The notes below the pieces were generated by a model, which saw only the letters and a list, made by a program, of their open reading frames with translations, made no database searches and was not told the DNA's origin. The position numbers were made by a program, and so were the translations under genes. This document shows positions 6,696-13,166 of a stretch of 64,000 nt of DNA, piece after piece. Every line of letters starts with the position of its first letter. Positions within the stretch are counted from its first letter, which is position 1. Source of the DNA: Streptomyces sp. NRRL F-5126 (GTDB lineage Bacteria > Actinomycetota > Actinomycetes > Streptomycetales > Streptomycetaceae); the NCBI RefSeq assembly GCF_000721265.1, contig NZ_JOFZ01000008.1, positions 248,001-312,000 of the forward strand, in the 5' to 3' direction.

Positions 6696-6702
6696 GCCCC
6701 CT

Positions 6703-6754
6703 GGGACAGCGGGGGCGGCAGGGGCGTGTCTCAGCCCTTGCCGCCCCCGTCCCA
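6703..6754. terminator. Hairpin terminator between convergent bkdC and thioesterase-like gene
   Basis: A GC-rich inverted repeat with left arm GCGGGGGCGGCAGGGGC (6709-6725) and right arm GCCCTTGCCGCCCCCGT (6734-6750) separated by 8 nt. The right arm overlaps the last codons of the opposing gene. No U-tract, as is usual in Streptomyces; it can serve both strands. Confidence 0.6.
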
Positions 6755-8014
6755 TTCGCCCGAGAGGTAGGCGAGGATCCGCGGCCACGCCCGTTCGCTC
6801 GCCGCTGCGTCCGCCGCCCTGCTGCCGCCCAGCCTGAGTCCGGTCCCGTTCGCGGACGGGCGGGTGCCGGTGGTGGGCGGGGTGTACGGGGACGTCCCCA
6901 CGCCGTGCCCCGCGCCGGCGTAGTCGAGCACGCGCACGGGGTACCGGTCGCCGTCGAGCCGCGCCTCGTCCCGCAGGCTCCGCGCATAGCGCGGCGACGC
7001 CCACACCTGGTCGTCGAGCCCGACGATGTCGAGGATCGGCCCGCTGACGTGTCCGAGCAGTACGGGGCCCTCGGCCACGGGCTTCCCTCCGAGCGTCCAG
7101 GCCGTCCCGCCGTGCGGGAAGCCCGGGTTGACGATGGAGGACCCCGAGAGGAGCACCGCGCCGTGCACGAGGCGCGGAAGGTGCTGCGCGAGCAGCAGCG
7201 CGGCCTCGCTGCCGCGTGATCCCCCGATTGCGACCAGCGACGACGGGTCGGCCGATGGCTGGGCCGCGAGCAGGCGCGCCGCGGTCGCGAAGTACTCGAT
7301 CGGCACGTCGCGCAGTTCCTTCGGCAGCCCCGGTTCGTCGAAGTAGGCCAGGGCGAGGGCGGGATGGCCGCGTGAGGCCAGCAGCGCCGCGTCCCAGACC
7401 GAGCTGTTGCCGCCCTCGCTGCCGCCGAACTCCAGCACGGGCGCGGCGCGCGGCGCTCCCTCGGGCGGCAGGAACAGCTCCCCGACGACGTGGTCGTGCG
7501 CCAGGGTCAGCTTCCTCGACCGCACACCGGGCGTGACCCACCTGCGGGTGAGCGTGCGGCTCGCGGCCGGGGCGCCCTGCTCCTTCGCGGTGAGGCGCAC
7601 CCGGTAGGCGGGAGAGCCGGCCTGCGGCAGGCCGCGGCCGAACGTGGTCGTGTCCGGGTCGCCCTTCGGGGGCACCATCGACCAGAACAGACCCATGCCG
7701 TCGGCCGTGTGGTACGTCCCCGAGACGGGCGCCTGCCCGTCCACGTCGACGGTGCCGTGACTGTCGGCGGTGAAGACGGCGTCGCCGTGCCACACGGAGC
7801 CGTCGGACGCGGTGGCCTCCGAGCGCACCGTGACGGTGCCGTACGTGGACAGGCCGGTGATCCGCAGGTGCACGGGCTGGTCGGCGAGCGCCGCCGCCCT
7901 GTCCACCCGGATCACGGGCCGCGTGCCGCCGCCCCCGCCGCTCGCGGAGGAGCACCCGGTGAGACCCGCCGAGACGACAGCGGCCGCGACGAGCCCTCGT
8001 ATCCAACGCTGCAT
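6731..8014 (-). CDS. Acyl-CoA thioesterase/BAAT-like lipoprotein
   Basis: A secreted lipoprotein starting at ATG 8014 (MQRWIRGLVAAAVV; an upstream start at 8023 would add three residues). The lipobox is LTGC with Cys about residue 20. After it come an N-terminal beta-sandwich domain (about 35-170) and an alpha/beta-hydrolase domain with nucleophile elbow GGSRGSEAA, an acidic residue in VGLDDQVW and the histidine in YAGAGHGVG. This layout matches acyl-CoA thioesterases and bile-acid-CoA:amino-acid N-acyltransferases; the nucleophile is Ser, as in thioesterases, rather than Cys. An extracytoplasmic place is odd for a CoA-ester enzyme, so the real substrate may be another acyl ester. It is divergent from the hemC-like gene. 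Confidence 0.8.
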   Translation of the reverse strand: MQRWIRGLVAAAVVSAGLTGCSSASGGGGGTRPVIRVDRAAALADQPVHLRITGLSTYGTVTVRSEATASDGSVWHGDAVFTADSHGTVDVDGQAPVSGTYHTADGMGLFWSMVPPKGDPDTTTFGRGLPQAGSPAYRVRLTAKEQGAPAASRTLTRRWVTPGVRSRKLTLAHDHVVGELFLPPEGAPRAAPVLEFGGSEGGNSSVWDAALLASRGHPALALAYFDEPGLPKELRDVPIEYFATAARLLAAQPSADPSSLVAIGGSRGSEAALLLAQHLPRLVHGAVLLSGSSIVNPGFPHGGTAWTLGGKPVAEGPVLLGHVSGPILDIVGLDDQVWASPRYARSLRDEARLDGDRYPVRVLDYAGAGHGVGTSPYTPPTTGTRPSANGTGLRLGGSRAADAAASERAWPRILAYLSGEWDGGGKG

Positions 8015-8023
8015 GCCAACCAA

Positions 8024-8569
8024 CCCCCCTGCCCCACGCGGCCGGTCATGCCGCGCGCTTCATTCTCGTCTCGGCACCACCGGGCGCAACAGGGGGTCGC
8101 GGGGGCAGCCGCGGGCAACCGCGGGGCAGCCGGGCGGCCGTGCCGGATATTCGATGGCATGTCGGGCGGCACGTAGGCACACTGGTTCGAGCAAGGCGCA
8201 CCCCGAAGGTCCGCCGGGACCGGGTCAGGCGCACCGCGGGGGACGGTGAGTCCCCGCTCGCGGCGCGCCTTGCGGGACAGCGCAGGCGAGCATCGCGCCG
8301 GGCCCACACGCCCGCCGCCGCGTCGTGCCGCCCGCGTGCTGTCCGGGGGCGGCCGCTTCGAGCGCGCATTCGCGCGGGCCGCCCCCTCCCCGCGCCTTCC
8401 CGAGGGGCAAGAGCTGTCAGCGAGACGCGTGAGGCTCCGGCCAGGACCGCCGGCCAAGGTGTCCGTCCGCGATGTAGTTCCTTTGGTGACAATCTGTCGG
8501 AAAGCGCGTGGTTTCGACGGACGTACGATGGGCCGCCAACAAGCCTGACACGGCGAGAGGTTGGCCTGG
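8024..8569. other. Long non-coding gap at the left edge of the hem-like cluster
   Basis: No credible gene in either direction: open frames here are Arg-rich and lack ribosome sites. The right end becomes less GC-rich (from about 8455) and should hold the promoter of the hemC-like gene, including GACAATCTGTC, an interrupted 4-bp inverted repeat at 8488-8498. The composition shift at about 8450 is a possible left border of the transferred cluster. Confidence 0.5.
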
Positions 8570-9502
8570 ATGAGTGATGTGGTACGCGTCGGTTCCCGAG
8601 CCAGCAGGCTGGCTCGGACGCAGGTCGCCGAGTGGCTCGCGCCTGTCGCCCGGCGACTTCCGGAGGTGACGTTCAAGCGACAGATCATCCTCGAAGGCGG
8701 GGACCGTGACCGTGTGACTTCGACCCTCGCCGAGGTTGCCAGGACAGCGGACGGCAGCGCCTTCTCCACGAACCAGGAAGCGGCATTGGTCACCGGGCAG
8801 GTTGATGTGATCGTGCACTCGCTCAAGGACCTCCCCACCTCCGTGCATCAGGGCACGATCCTTCTGACGACTCCAGGACCGCGTGAGGACGTACGCGACG
8901 TGCTGTGCGGATCGACGTTGGCAGGCCTCCGGAAAGGCGCACGGGTCGGCACTGGAGCACCGCGCCGCGTCGGCCAGCTTCTCGCCCTACGGCCGGACCT
9001 GGAGGTTGTGCCGGTTCGGGGGAACGTTCCCGGGCGGCTCGCCCGGACGACAAAGGGCAGCCTTGACGGGGTGATCCTTGCGGCAGCGGGCCTGCACCGC
9101 CTCGGCCTGATGCCGGAGGCCCATGAGGAGCTCGACCCCGCTGTCTTCCCTCCCTCTCCCGGTCAGGGCGCGCTCGGCATCCAGGTCCGTGCCGGCTCTC
9201 CAGTTGCCGCACTGCTGGCATGGACCGGAGACACACAGGTGGACGCATGCGTGCGAGCCGAGCGCGTACTGCTGGCCGAACTGCACGGAGGCTGCTCCGT
9301 CCCGGTCGGAGCCTGGTGCCGAGTCGAGCCTGGCGGTGCCCTGTCCCTCAGCGCCGCCGTGACCTCCAAGGACGGTGCCCAGCAGGTTACGGCGGCAGGA
9401 GAAGGACCGATCGACGACGCCGAAAAGCTCGGCGTGTCCATCGCGGCAGATCTCCTCGCTCAGGGCGCAGCCGACATCCTGAGGTCGATCAGGACGTTCT
9501 GA
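8570..9502 (+). CDS. Hydroxymethylbilane synthase-like protein (HemC paralogue)
   Basis: A 310-residue HemC-family protein; ATG 8570 is chosen because GAGAGG lies 9 nt upstream. Hydroxymethylbilane synthase links four porphobilinogens on a dipyrromethane cofactor. The cofactor-attaching cysteine is present (GGCSVPVG, C242, the E. coli number), as are the catalytic aspartate in HSLKDLP (D87), the substrate-binding arginines in GTGAPRRVGQL and VRGNVPGRL, and GSRASRLA near the N terminus. The active-site loop is changed: GGKGLFVKELE of normal HemC reads DGSAFSTNQEAAL, losing both lysines. So it may be active but differs from housekeeping HemC. It converges on a degenerate HemB-like gene with a 14-bp overlap of coding ends, and uses less biased codons than flanking genes. 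Confidence 0.85.
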   Translation: MSDVVRVGSRASRLARTQVAEWLAPVARRLPEVTFKRQIILEGGDRDRVTSTLAEVARTADGSAFSTNQEAALVTGQVDVIVHSLKDLPTSVHQGTILLTTPGPREDVRDVLCGSTLAGLRKGARVGTGAPRRVGQLLALRPDLEVVPVRGNVPGRLARTTKGSLDGVILAAAGLHRLGLMPEAHEELDPAVFPPSPGQGALGIQVRAGSPVAALLAWTGDTQVDACVRAERVLLAELHGGCSVPVGAWCRVEPGGALSLSAAVTSKDGAQQVTAAGEGPIDDAEKLGVSIAADLLAQGAADILRSIRTF

Positions 9503-10418
9503 GCTCGCGCGCGAGATCCAGGGCCCCGTAGGTGATGATCCGGGAGGCACCCGCACGCTTGAGAACCGTGTACGCCTCGATCAGGCCTTTCACGTCTCGC
9601 CTGCCGTCGTCGCGGCAGTCCGTCAGGCGCAGGTACTCGCCCGACACCGAAAACGGCACCAGAGGGACAGGGATCTTGTCCTTGAGGTGCACGAGGGTGT
9701 CAACGGTGTGGAGGGCCGGCTCGGTGAGGATCGCGTCCGCGCCCTCGTCGACCATCTCCCGCGCCACATGGACGGCCCGCTCGGGTCGGCCGGGATCGAT
9801 CTGGAACGCACGGGTGCCCGAGCGGGGAACAGCGCCCATCGATTGCCTGTACCCCTGGTAGAGGGACGACTCGAAGATCAGGTGCGGCATGACGCCCACC
9901 GCCTTGTGCCCTGCCGCGTCGAGTGCTTCACGGACGGCGCGAACGGATCCGGAGATCATCGCGGCGGGCCCGACGATATCCGCACCGGCGTCGGCCTGCA
10001 TCACAGCCTGGACAGTCAAGTTCGCGGTTGTTCTGGACAGGCCCATTCCCCCGCGTTCGTCGGTGAGCCAGCACTCGCCCGAGTCGTTGTGCGAGCAGAC
10101 GCACGTCTCCGTCATCACGAGCATGTCGGGAGCGGTCTTCTTGGCGGCAGCGATGGCACGGGACATGAGGCCGATGGGAGAAAAGCCCTGAGACGCCTGG
10201 GCGTCCCTGACCCTGGAGCCCGCGAAGATCTTCACCGATTTAACGCCGAGGGATTCGAGAGCCCGCACCGTATCGGGCACCTCACTCACGGTCAGTGTGG
10301 GCAACGGCCGTGGCCTTGTGTCGTCGTCTTCTCTCATCAGGAAGACCATGGACAGGTCGGCAGAGGTCAGCCCGGGAGCGTCGAGGAAGTTGCGTACGAC
10401 TGAGCGCTGGAGGGGCAA
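9489..10418 (-). CDS. HemB-like protein lacking both Schiff-base lysines
   Basis: A 309-residue porphobilinogen-synthase-fold protein. The TTG start at 10418 is fixed by a perfect AAGGAG ribosome site 6 nt upstream; longer readings begin in non-homologous sequence. Fold landmarks are MTETCVCSHNDSGECW (zinc-type cysteines), DAGADIVGPAAMISG, FSVSGEYLRL and GASRIITYGALDLA. However, the two catalytic lysines that bind 5-aminolevulinate are gone: the SAKFASSFYGPFR segment reads HLIFESSLYQGYR and the MVKPGMPYLD segment reads LTEPALHTVD. The active-site Asp in SAAMDG is also Ser (AAMISG). It therefore should not make porphobilinogen by the known mechanism. It is downstream of the ATPase gene and converges on the hemC-like gene. 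New catalytic, binding or regulatory roles are all possible. Confidence 0.85.
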   Translation of the reverse strand: MPLQRSVVRNFLDAPGLTSADLSMVFLMREDDDTRPRPLPTLTVSEVPDTVRALESLGVKSVKIFAGSRVRDAQASQGFSPIGLMSRAIAAAKKTAPDMLVMTETCVCSHNDSGECWLTDERGGMGLSRTTANLTVQAVMQADAGADIVGPAAMISGSVRAVREALDAAGHKAVGVMPHLIFESSLYQGYRQSMGAVPRSGTRAFQIDPGRPERAVHVAREMVDEGADAILTEPALHTVDTLVHLKDKIPVPLVPFSVSGEYLRLTDCRDDGRRDVKGLIEAYTVLKRAGASRIITYGALDLARELRTS

Positions 10419-10516
10419 TTGCTTCTCCTTGAGAGTCAAGGTGGGGGCCCGGCAGGTGTGACCGGGTGCGTGATGGCCCGCGCCTGACGCTGAGACCCCT
10501 CTGGTTAGAGCGGCGG

Positions 10517-10936
10517 TCAGCATGGCTGAGGCTCGCGCACGGACATCGAGGCGGGAACCTTGAACTCGACCCAGACGATCTTGCCGAGACCCTTCCGAGG
10601 CGCGGTCCCCCAGCCATCGGCGAGAGCGGCGACGAGCGTGAGACCGCGCCCGGACATATCGTCGTCGTCCGGTGATCGAAGTCGCGGCCGACTCTCGCAC
10701 GCGTCGTGCACTTCGATGCGCAGGACTCTCTCGTCCAGGGTCGCGCGTACGAGAAAGAGGCGACCAGCAGGGGTGCCGTGCTGCAGGGCATTCGTGGTCA
10801 GTTCGGAGACGCAGAGTGTGATGTCGTCGATGCGGTCACGGAACTGTTCGACGGGAAGCGCGTCGCGGATGAATGCTCGGGCATCGCCGATGGAAGCGGC
10901 CGCGCGGCTGAACCGGGTTTCACACGACTCAGCCAC
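10517..10936 (-). CDS. RsbW-like ATP-binding regulatory protein (HATPase_c_2)
   Basis: A 139-residue GHKL-fold ATPase like the anti-sigma factor kinases RsbW/SpoIIAB. The N box is seen as LCVSELTTNALQHG, the G1 box as VHDACESRP (normally D-x-G, here degenerate) and the G2 box as MSGRGLTLVAAL. Streptomyces have dozens of such stand-alone proteins; most have no known partner. It lies 98 bp upstream of the HemB-like gene on the same strand and is divergent from the TPR/HTH regulator, a pairing often seen in actinobacterial developmental loci. Likely cotranscribed with the HemB-like gene. Confidence 0.82.
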   Translation of the reverse strand: MAESCETRFSRAAASIGDARAFIRDALPVEQFRDRIDDITLCVSELTTNALQHGTPAGRLFLVRATLDERVLRIEVHDACESRPRLRSPDDDDMSGRGLTLVAALADGWGTAPRKGLGKIVWVEFKVPASMSVREPQPC

Positions 10937-11259
10937 GCGTCCTCATCTCCCTCCTGTTGAGGCGGCATCGCCAGAGGGAGGGGCGGCGGGCGGGCAAGTC
11001 GCCTGCGGCGGCGCATGATGGCGCGCCACATCCGGATTCAAGCCATGGGTCCACGGCAACAGGTCTCCTTGTAAGTCGTCGGCGGAAGCACGGGCGGCCC
11101 GCGCGGTGCGTCCGCGGGAGCAGATCCAAGGAACCGCTTCCTGTCCGGCGATACCAGAGCAGAATTGGGGCGGAGGCGGCGCAACGATGGGGCACACCCG
11201 TGCTCTGCCGGGGACAACGGTGTGCCGCGAAAACTGTGGACGGCTGGGGAGGAACGCCC
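10937..11259. other. Divergent promoter region of the ATPase and TPR/HTH regulator
   Basis: No gene seen. Contains the inverted repeat GGCACACC (11191-11198) and GGTGTGCC (11219-11226), exact 8-bp arms 20 nt apart, which could be an operator for the adjoining regulator or a leader hairpin. The strong ribosome site GGGGAGGA at 11246-11253 belongs to the regulator. Confidence 0.5.
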
Positions 11260-12423
11260 GTGGCGGTGAAAAGGCACGCACTCGTGCGGCGCCGTCGTGC
11301 TCTGGGCTACACCCAGGAGTCCCTTTCCGAAGCTCTCGGGGTCGAGCGTTCCACGGTCAGGCGCTGGGAGTCCGCCGAATCGAGCCCCCTTCCGTACCAA
11401 AGACCCCGCCTGGCGCGCCTCTTCCGGATCAGCACCGAGACGTTGGACGACCTGCTGACCGTGGCACCTACGGCTTCCAGCCGGACCGAGCGCGTGAGCC
11501 GCGCTCTGCGTAACCCGTCGGCAGTCGATCTCGTCGTGGCTGCGGAGATGCGCTCTGCAATGGGTGACCTGACAGGCCGATACGACACCGTCCCTTCGGC
11601 GGGACTCATCGCGGATGCCGGGCAACAGCTCCATCAGATCGCGCTCCTCGCCGATGAGGCGCCGGCCGGCCGCGTTCAGCGCGAACTGCGCTCCCTGCAA
11701 GCCGATGCGGCCATGCTCATGGGGCAGTTGGTCTGGGACGCGTCACAGCGGCGCGACCACGAGTCGGCGCGCGCCTACTACGCGCAGAGCGTGGAGTTGG
11801 CGCGCCACCTGCAGGACCCGGCGACTGAAGGACATGCTCTGCTACGCACCTGCTACATCGCCCTGTACGGAGCAAATGACCACCGGCAGGGACTCGAACT
11901 CGCCCTCCATGCGGCGCAGACCACCCGCAGGACCAGCCATGCCCTGTCGGGTCTCGCTCTCCTGCACGCTGCGGAGGCCCACGCGTTCCTGGGCGAACAC
12001 AGCGCATGCGAGAGCGCTCTGCTGGGTGCTGAAAAGCACCTCGAACGCTCTAACGGGACCGACGCCGGCTTCGAACTGTTCACTCCGACTCACTTCGGGC
12101 GCCTCGCGGGCTCTTGCTACCTGTCACTCGGAAACTACGACAAGGCACAACAGTTCTTACGGGACAGCGCTACGCGGATGGGAGGTCGCCGCAAGTCACG
12201 GGCGATCGTCCTGGGCAACCTGGCGCTGACCACGATCCGCCAGGGCGACCTCGATGCCGCACTCCCCGTGTTCAATGACGCCGTCGACGAGCTTCAGGGG
12301 ACTCGCGGAGGTGGTGGAATGAACCTGGTCTTCCGTGCCGCACGCGAACTGCGGCCCTGGCGCGGCGAGAACGCGGTACAGGAGGCGCAGGATCGTCTGA
12401 TGGCATTGATGGAGGCGGGATGA
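11260..12423 (+). CDS. XRE-type HTH / TPR-repeat regulator with a TTA codon
   Basis: A 387-residue protein from GTG 11260 with GGGGAGGA 6 nt upstream. Residues 3-60 form a lambda-repressor-type helix-turn-helix (RRRALGYTQESLSEALGVERSTVRRWESAES), and the remainder is helical with TPR-like repeats (ARAYYAQSVELARHL, LGNYDKAQQFLRDSA, QGDLDAALPVFNDAV). Proteins of this build are common in Streptomyces and often control a neighbouring gene set. Codon 300 (12157-12159) is TTA, so full translation should need the developmental tRNA encoded by bldA. The stop overlaps the next start as ATGA, coupling it to the cyclo-ligase-like gene. It is divergent from the ATPase/HemB-like unit and probably regulates the cluster; that is inference. 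Confidence 0.85.
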   Translation: MAVKRHALVRRRRALGYTQESLSEALGVERSTVRRWESAESSPLPYQRPRLARLFRISTETLDDLLTVAPTASSRTERVSRALRNPSAVDLVVAAEMRSAMGDLTGRYDTVPSAGLIADAGQQLHQIALLADEAPAGRVQRELRSLQADAAMLMGQLVWDASQRRDHESARAYYAQSVELARHLQDPATEGHALLRTCYIALYGANDHRQGLELALHAAQTTRRTSHALSGLALLHAAEAHAFLGEHSACESALLGAEKHLERSNGTDAGFELFTPTHFGRLAGSCYLSLGNYDKAQQFLRDSATRMGGRRKSRAIVLGNLALTTIRQGDLDAALPVFNDAVDELQGTRGGGGMNLVFRAARELRPWRGENAVQEAQDRLMALMEAG

Positions 12424-13166
12424 GGGAGCACCAGGTGTTCGCGGACGTGGATCGCGAGAAGCAGCAGGTGCGCGAGCATGTGTGGGATGTCCTCGACGCT
12501 GAGGGCGTCACTCACGACGACACCGTCCACGGGCGCATTCCGAACTTCAAGGGATCTCAGGAGGCCGCCGCCAGGCTCGCCGAGCTACCTGCTTGGAAGG
12601 ACGCCGCGGTGATCAAGTCCGTGCCCGACAAGGCCCAGCTTCCTGTCCGCGCCCTCGCGTTGTCCGAGGGCAAGACCGTCTTCATGGCCGTACCCAAGCT
12701 GGCGGACCTCCACCCCTTCTACCTGCTCGATCCCGCAGCGCTCACCGTCCCGCCGGCGGAAGCCGCCTCCAGCCGTGTCGCCGCCGATATCGCCCCCAAG
12801 GTGGGGGTGGACTCCCTCAGACCGGTGGACATGGTGGTGCTGGGCAGCGTGGCCGTGAACCGAGCCGGTGTACGGATCGGCAAGGGGGCCGGCTACTCCG
12901 ACCTGGAGTTCGCGTTCCTCACCGAGGCAGGACTGATCGGGGAGCACACTATCGTCGTCACCACCGTGCATGGGCTGCAGGTTCTCGACGACGACCTGCC
13001 TGCCACCGCGCATGATGTCGGCGTCGACGTGATCGTGACGCCCGAGCGGACCATCAGCTGCGCCGCGCCTCACCGGCCGTCCGGACTTGTTTGGGACCAC
13101 CTGGACAGCCGGAAGATCGCATCCATCCCGGTGCTCGCAGCCCGCGCACCGCGGGCCGGCATCTGA
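12420..13166 (+). CDS. 5-formyltetrahydrofolate cyclo-ligase-like protein
   Basis: A 248-residue member of the MTHFS superfamily. The phosphate/ATP-loop-like motif is GKGAGYSDLEFAF (about residues 156-168), matching GRGGGYYDR of true cyclo-ligases; DMVVLGSVAVNRAGVRIGKGAGY is the family's typical lead-in. Canonical enzymes (about 190 residues) convert 5-formyl-THF plus ATP to methenyl-THF; this longer version resembles the MTHFSD-like branch whose role is unknown. The ATG lies inside the stop of the regulator gene (ATGA), so it is translationally coupled and belongs functionally to the same cluster as the HemC/HemB-like genes. A pterin or formyl substrate is possible, not shown. Confidence 0.8.
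   Translation: MREHQVFADVDREKQQVREHVWDVLDAEGVTHDDTVHGRIPNFKGSQEAAARLAELPAWKDAAVIKSVPDKAQLPVRALALSEGKTVFMAVPKLADLHPFYLLDPAALTVPPAEAASSRVAADIAPKVGVDSLRPVDMVVLGSVAVNRAGVRIGKGAGYSDLEFAFLTEAGLIGEHTIVVTTVHGLQVLDDDLPATAHDVGVDVIVTPERTISCAAPHRPSGLVWDHLDSRKIASIPVLAARAPRAGI

Follow-up and report, generated by a model that had tools for sequence, protein, structure and literature searches.

In a stretch of 64,000 nucleotides of the Streptomyces sp. NRRL F-5126 genome (contig NZ_JOFZ01000008.1, positions 248,001-312,000), which we call the window, five genes lie between positions 8570 and 13166. Two of them code for relatives of the porphyrin-pathway enzymes porphobilinogen synthase (HemB) and hydroxymethylbilane synthase (HemC), designated here HemB* and HemC*. 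A first-pass annotation of the window had described the five as one compact accessory cluster. All the reading frames are there, together with the 546-bp gap to their left, the 14-bp overlap of coding ends, the ATGA overlap and the TTA codon that it had listed. By position the five genes do form a compact unit; by evolution they are two modules, A (HemB* and HemC*) and B (an RsbW-like gene divergent from an XRE-TPR regulator gene, which is followed by a 5-formyltetrahydrofolate cyclo-ligase-like, or 5-FCL-like, gene). The features are the following.

8570..9502, + strand: HemC*, hydroxymethylbilane-synthase paralogue of 310 aa, module A (TIGR00212 profile, catalytic residues)
9489..10418, - strand: HemB*, porphobilinogen-synthase-like protein of 309 aa without the Schiff-base lysines, module A (PF00490, alignments, AlphaFold2)
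9489..9502, no strand: convergent overlap of the HemC* and HemB* stop ends, 14 bp (same kind of overlap in other loci)
10517..10936, - strand: RsbW-like ATPase of 139 aa, divergent member of module B (PF13581)
11260..12423, + strand: XRE-TPR regulator of the NsdA family, 387 aa, module B (NF053720; HTH_3, TPR_12)
12157..12159, + strand: TTA, rare leucine codon 300 of the XRE-TPR regulator (sequence)
12420..13166, + strand: 5-FCL-like protein of 248 aa, module B (PF01812)

The start codon of HemB* is TTG, at the position where its homologues have Met. The RsbW-like gene is located upstream of HemB* on the same - strand, with HemB* 98 bp downstream, and the ATGA shared by the regulator and 5-FCL-like genes occupies 12420-12423.

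HemB* scores 194.6 bits with PF00490 and misses the curated equivalog threshold of NF006762 (193.9 bits against a cut-off of 297). A search of 5.8 billion proteins with the HemB-like protein gave at least 1732 matches, and the best 120 of these were analyzed together with the window protein (121 sequences) and compared with the ordinary HemB of the host; 24 matches and the window protein were also placed in a separate alignment of 25 sequences. The first-pass annotation had called HemB* chemically changed, and the census bears this out, since no Schiff-base lysine is present in any of the 121 sequences. The P-site lysine, which we take to be K246/247 of E. coli, is replaced by Glu in 121/121, and the A-site lysine (presumably E. 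coli K194/195) falls in a gap in 121/121, the 25-sequence alignment having no Lys in that strand. The active-site Asp that precedes the first zinc cysteine is also Glu throughout (121/121). Other residues of the active site are retained: the first and second zinc-type cysteines in 121/121 and the third in 120/121, and the Arg of PFR, the Gln, the Tyr of LTY and the Tyr/Phe of SGEY each in all 121, while the second carboxylate Arg, R204, is invariant in the 25 aligned sequences. A Lys two positions before the active-site Phe on strand 2 (Lys64) was found in 118 of the 121. Those of the matches that carry a name in the databases are mostly called 'hypothetical protein' and sometimes porphobilinogen synthase or delta-aminolevulinic acid dehydratase. 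The host's own HemB has a Cys-Asp-Cys metal site, which rules out that HemB* was copied from it recently; the two proteins are 31-33% identical.

To the window protein and 23 of the 120 matches we added the new matches listed by a further search (minus one near-copy), the Rhizobium pair, two other HemBs and the host HemB, giving a set of 144 sequences. Among them, 39 carry the combination Glu, no Lys, Glu, Lys, two are non-canonical in other ways and 103 are canonical; the correlated residue switch is therefore found in 39 of 41 non-canonical and in none of the 103 canonical sequences. One of the two others is the HemB of locus L106, lysine-less and with Gln at the P site. The second is sequence P0142, a third state without both lysines: it retains the Asp, lacks a Lys both at the A site and on strand 2, and has Gln as its P-site residue. 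For a midpoint-rooted tree we combined the 41 non-canonical rows with 42 rows from the 103 canonical ones, 40 of which were drawn at random; nine long rows were flagged. One branch splits non-canonical from canonical HemB with a support of 100/100 and in 100% of 200 bootstrap trees. Its stem measures about 1.5 changes per column.

The AlphaFold2 model of HemB* has a predicted local distance difference test (pLDDT) value of 91.5 and a predicted template modelling (pTM) score of 0.90. Its best Foldseek match in the PDB is 1b4e (template modelling score, TM, 0.87; E 2.3e-27), and all of the best 50 rows are ALAD structures. By profile and model HemB* has the porphobilinogen-synthase TIM-barrel (ALAD) fold. 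The modelled strands at 62-67, 101-103, 180-183 and 231-234 place residues 64, 105, 182 and 234 on or just after barrel strands, and the location of Lys64, two positions ahead of the conserved Phe, suggests that it would face the active site.

HemC* passes TIGR00212 with 228.6 bits (cut-off 164; longest frame scored). In an alignment of 25 HemCs that included HemC*, a second adjacent type and host copies, R10, K86, D87, R132, R133, R150, R156, R177 and C242 are invariant, and we take these to be the cofactor Cys, the catalytic Asp and the Arg set of E. coli HemC. The first-pass annotation was right that the cofactor cysteine C242 is kept and that a loop is altered: residues from about 45 to 66 differ from the host's ordinary HemC. 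The 7.18 Mb host genome has three HemC matches, on contigs C14 and C7 and in the window. Its ordinary hemA-hemC-hemD-hemB operon is the one on C14 (L040), and no HemB adjoins the C7 copy (L039), judged by eye. HemA, HemD and HemL are absent from the window unit, which is not an ordinary haem operon, in agreement with what had been proposed.

To examine the pairing of both genes we used 42 loci, all of them found with queries of the HemB* type. A HemC gene was located at a distance of 3 kb or less in all 32 loci scored with an intact HemB*, a count that leaves out L005, with one 309-residue HemB* match in an open frame. In these loci intact HemB* always had a HemC neighbour; HemC* does not need HemB*. 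The two-gene cassette is kept together in unrelated genomes. Gene orders were compared in 36 named genome loci obtained with the 25-sequence alignment; their flanks reach 10 kb at most, contig ends shortening some of them. HemC of the HemC* type, with an identity of no less than 48%, occurs in 32 of these loci. In 32 of the 36 HemC* and HemB* are convergent, and 27 of these 32 have a stop overlap of 4-14 bp; one overlaps by 40 bp, Actinomadura alba has a gap of 313 bp and the remaining three have a damaged HemB*. In 13 of the 36 there is another HemC, divergent from HemC* and most similar to the C7 type.

Other orders are HemC followed by HemB* on the Streptomonospora plasmid phiM2, HemB* followed by an overlapping HemC in L105, HemC-NUDIX-HemB* in L030 (Microtetraspora), HemB-methyltransferase-HemC in L106 (the methyltransferase belonging to PF13578) and, on the conjugative plasmid pRltCC275eA of Rhizobium brockwellii, HemB* and hemC followed by a convergent hemB that bears the lysines. 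The HemC of L106 (genome G284, 7215-9753) is 80% identical to the C7 copy of the window genome, and L047 (G066) has a methyltransferase 63% identical to that of L106 beside an incomplete HemB; these two loci form a putative second cassette type, with the Gln-P-site lysine-less HemB in L106. A GMC oxidoreductase gene (L122, 11202-12887) adjoins the Rhizobium cassette. NUDIX genes stand beside extra HemC genes in L008 (11896-12498) and L030 (9480-9989), both by PF00293, and in L011 (11910-12485) and L105 (about 6696-7139), both by similarity.

The distance matrices of HemB* and HemC* are correlated over 29 loci (r 0.86, with 0/2000 permutations as high), a value that includes shared species history. 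The ratios of nonsynonymous to synonymous change (dN/dS) against S. montanisoli were 0.23 for HemC*, 0.25 for HemB*, 0.12 for RsbW, 0.16 for the regulator, 0.20 for 5-FCL and 0.12 for serS. Against three further species they were 0.13-0.20 for HemC* and 0.16-0.20 for HemB*, the most distant pair being near saturation at silent sites. In A. alba a glutamyl-tRNA reductase (GlutR) gene, hemA, one of three GlutR copies in that genome, is divergent from HemB*, and a class-III aminotransferase (PF00202), HemL-like by eye only, lies 2.4 kb beyond it. None of the other loci in the set of 36 had a strong hemA match. When the proteins of the 36 loci were clustered into families, HemC and HemB were followed in frequency by RsbW-like proteins (8), ABC ATPases (7, scattered) and XRE regulators (6); NUDIX genes appeared in three loci of this clustering.

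The genes of module B behave differently. Among the 36 HemB* loci the XRE-TPR and 5-FCL genes are found as a pair only in S. montanisoli, a near relative that keeps all five proteins together with 93-96% identity to those of the window, which does not support one cluster of the five families as the first-pass annotation had it. That annotation had made its proposal depend on other genomes keeping the genes together; beyond this one relative none does so for all five, while the HemB/HemC pair is kept. From the other side, a survey of 121 Streptomyces genomes gave 5-FCL-like matches in 15, at 17 places counting that of the window, and at 16 of the 17 (15/16 excluding the window) the gene immediately upstream is XRE-TPR. 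The remaining 16 stretches, none longer than about 3.7 kb, showed neither HemB* nor HemC*, and the same holds for six of them extended to 17-18 kb. In five of these six longer stretches an RsbW gene lies upstream of the regulator and divergent from it, the sixth having neither RsbW nor regulator, and this arrangement assigns the window rsbW to module B. The two modules adjoin only in the window and in S. montanisoli among the loci examined, and a single five-gene unit was rejected because A and B occur separately. In 13 of the 36 loci an RsbW-like gene also precedes HemB* on its strand by no more than 2.5 kb, against two matches elsewhere in those loci. The RsbW profile was built from 11 of the genes of those same loci and that of the window, and the enrichment thus depends in part on the sequences that trained the profile; a possible regulatory link of HemB* to genes of the RsbW type nevertheless merits a test.

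The XRE-TPR regulator passes NF053720, the NsdA family of TPR regulators (152.5 bits, cut-off 75; longest frame scored), and has HTH_3 and TPR_12 domains. TTA codons are common in Streptomyces regulators; they were present, at differing positions, in five of six other regulators examined, S. montanisoli included, which fits bldA-dependent control. We liken the pairing of an RsbW protein, matched here by PF13581, with an XRE regulator to the abaA and whiJ types. The 5-FCL-like protein scores 92.6 bits with PF01812 and misses the TIGR02727 cyclo-ligase equivalog threshold (34.8 against 84.9 bits). Its similarity to solved 5-FCL structures is marginal, none being close, and its invariant GKGAGYSD stretch presumably resembles the motif of the 5-FCL family.

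Module A is rare. HemB* above 50% identity was found in 3 of 150 Streptomyces genomes, one being a fragment and one incomplete, and class-wide the strict HemB* threshold was reached in 3 of 394 genomes, that of the window included. A relaxase gene of the MobA/VirD2 type (PF03432) is near the module in L004, L018 and L102, and the same family was recognized by similarity in L007 and L012. phiM2 is a plasmid according to its record, and we found no paper on it. A phage origin was rejected, the nine matches in phage collections all being below 36% identity and annotated as hemB or not at all; the scan of viral contigs gave none. A known defence system was likewise rejected, since the five proteins compared with the PADLOC models gave only HTH-only RmrA matches.

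The closest named locus is that of S. montanisoli, with a serS 98.6% identical to the window serS. The right flank (HAD, serS) is syntenic in four relatives. In the comparison with these four no clean empty insertion site was found at this locus, because the genes to the left of the HAD/serS flank differ, apart from one 32% match. The left side holds one more gene.

6731..8023: BAAT-type gene, between the E2 gene and HemC* (domain matches PF04775, PF08840)

The gene-free 546 bp to the left of HemC* (8024-8569) come directly after this gene. In S. montanisoli the spacing from the E2 gene to HemC* is only 483 bp, which leaves no room there for the BAAT-type gene. It was matched in 3 of 25 other relatives, and is a second change at this site.

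We give about an even chance to the reading that module A is a mobile accessory cassette, with products that act jointly on a porphyrin-pathway metabolite and give or alter a non-haem pyrrole. The residues lead us to infer a chemistry that would start from delta-aminolevulinic acid (ALA) or porphobilinogen (PBG). HemC* has the residues by which E. coli HemC deaminates and links PBG on its dipyrromethane cofactor. In HemB* the catalytic Lys/Lys/Asp set is replaced by the conserved Glu105, Glu234 and Lys64, with no A-site Lys, next to the retained zinc-type cysteine triad, carboxylate-site Arg and Gln, and active-site Tyr. Such a protein would no longer form PBG by the double Schiff-base route. 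It may bind ALA, PBG or a related di-acid beside zinc and perform a different condensation or modification, possibly through a Schiff base on the relocated Lys64, and HemC* would use PBG, the HemB* product or both to build a short linear oligopyrrole, or else some other non-haem pyrrole. ALA and PBG would be drawn from the host, with what may be an own supply in A. alba (the extra hemA) and on the Rhizobium plasmid (the lysine-bearing hemB); these precursor genes strengthen the tie to the pathway. The RsbW, XRE-TPR and 5-FCL-like genes would be a separate regulatory module that came to adjoin the cassette and may drive HemB*, the next gene after rsbW on that strand. The pyrrole-derived product suggested in the first-pass annotation is still the best reading; the tie to development that it also suggested rests only on the type of the regulator. 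A bolder proposal makes HemB* a new class of enzyme built on the scaffold of porphobilinogen synthase, in which strand 2 instead of strand 6 bears the catalytic lysine (Lys64, working with Glu105/Glu234 and zinc). Together with its HemC partner it would be central to a pathway, so far undescribed, that leads to a pyrrole or oligopyrrole and is carried by plasmids and mobile elements in Actinomycetota and Rhizobium. We put it forward tentatively and think it somewhat doubtful.

Several observations weigh against a joint pyrrole chemistry. HemB* is broken or incomplete in 9 of the 42 loci, eight of which still have HemC or a remnant of it and one (L035) none. The precursor genes hemA and hemB were each seen once only, and the 36 loci have no widely recurring tailoring or transport family. 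HemC* reaches threshold in 7 of 150 Streptomyces genomes, and five of the seven (G010, G023, G025, G035 and G147) show one, ordinary HemB match only, among the matches listed, with no HemB* near their HemC*. Strict obligate pairing was on this ground rejected from the HemC* side, HemC* being able to persist alone; in one such locus (L102) HemC* is itself truncated. Finally, the conservation would equally suit a binding or regulatory role of HemB*. The main rival reading makes it a non-catalytic subunit: HemB* would be a catalytically dead PBG synthase that senses ALA or PBG and tunes HemC* or the host HemB, for example in mixed oligomers, the pair diverting or buffering tetrapyrrole flux. The loss of the Schiff-base lysines while the fold and the ligand-binding residues stay, and the pairing with HemC, agree with it. 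However, we would not expect an enzyme that is simply dead to settle on identical Glu, Glu and Lys replacements and to retain three zinc-type cysteines in Actinomycetota and Rhizobium alike, and we judge this role rather improbable.

The relaxase genes near the module, the plasmid copies and the patchy distribution in Streptomyces could also point to a weapon or self-protection cargo of mobile elements, either a pyrrole antimetabolite directed at the haem synthesis of rivals or a defence product. This is unlikely, given that the PADLOC matches of the five proteins are limited to the HTH, that no exporter or immunity family recurs widely in the 36 loci and that the viral-contig scan was negative. 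That all five genes make a joint precursor-sensing developmental switch, the second idea of the first-pass annotation, is very unlikely, and was already weakened by the separate occurrence of the modules: the five genes are together in S. montanisoli and the same-strand RsbW-like gene precedes HemB* in 13/36 loci (with a profile partly trained on them), but the XRE-TPR and 5-FCL pair stands without HemB*/HemC* in 15 of the 16 other 5-FCL matches, over the stretches compared, and, beyond the window, accompanies HemB* in that near relative only. The least credible of the alternatives, with hardly any chance in our estimate, is a pair of back-up haem enzymes for metal stress, like the Zur-regulated HemB2 paralogues. 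PMC2770081 proposes such a role for a paralogous hemB in Pseudomonas, but the HemB2 back-up described there lost its zinc cysteines, while HemB* has the triad and the host enzyme the C-D-C site, and the lysines needed for PBG formation are gone from HemB*.

Porphobilinogen synthase is the textbook double-Schiff-base enzyme, and HemB* is a conserved sister group without both lysines. The fixed set of replacements, with HemC in every intact locus examined (32/32), suggests that ALA or PBG undergoes a chemistry not yet on record, and probably that a new class of pyrrole metabolite exists. The residue signature of HemB*, with T-E-T-C-x-C, E-P where others have K-P and a missing K ahead of SSxY, would fix annotations and enable genome mining, and the Rhizobium plasmid version, with its own hemB included, is a compact test case. 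In open-licence PMC full text, mostly focused on Streptomyces, we found no description of the HemB* clade or of its pairing with HemC.

Among known systems, module B can be compared with the abaA/whiJ/bldB-type regulatory clusters of Streptomyces (PMC10294661). The common feature is an RsbW-like ATPase gene beside that of an XRE-type regulator. The window differs in having a regulator of the NsdA family, and a profile search of its five proteins gave no DUF397 (bldB-type) domain. The 5-FCL-like protein shares the PF01812 domain with the 5-FCL paralogues of COG0212 (Pribat et al. 2011, as cited in PMC5041015); it differs by failing the cyclo-ligase equivalog and by a gene start that overlaps the end of the XRE-TPR gene. 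HemC* shares with hydroxymethylbilane synthase (PF01379/PF03900) the equivalog score, Cys242 and the Asp and Arg residues, and differs from it as an extra paralogue with an altered loop that adjoins HemB* instead of hemA or hemD. In the same way, HemB* shares with porphobilinogen synthase (HemB/ALAD, PF00490) the fold, the zinc-type cysteines and the active-site Tyr, Arg and Gln, and is set apart by the lost catalytic lysines, the change of Asp to Glu, the new strand-2 Lys and the long branch that separates both groups.

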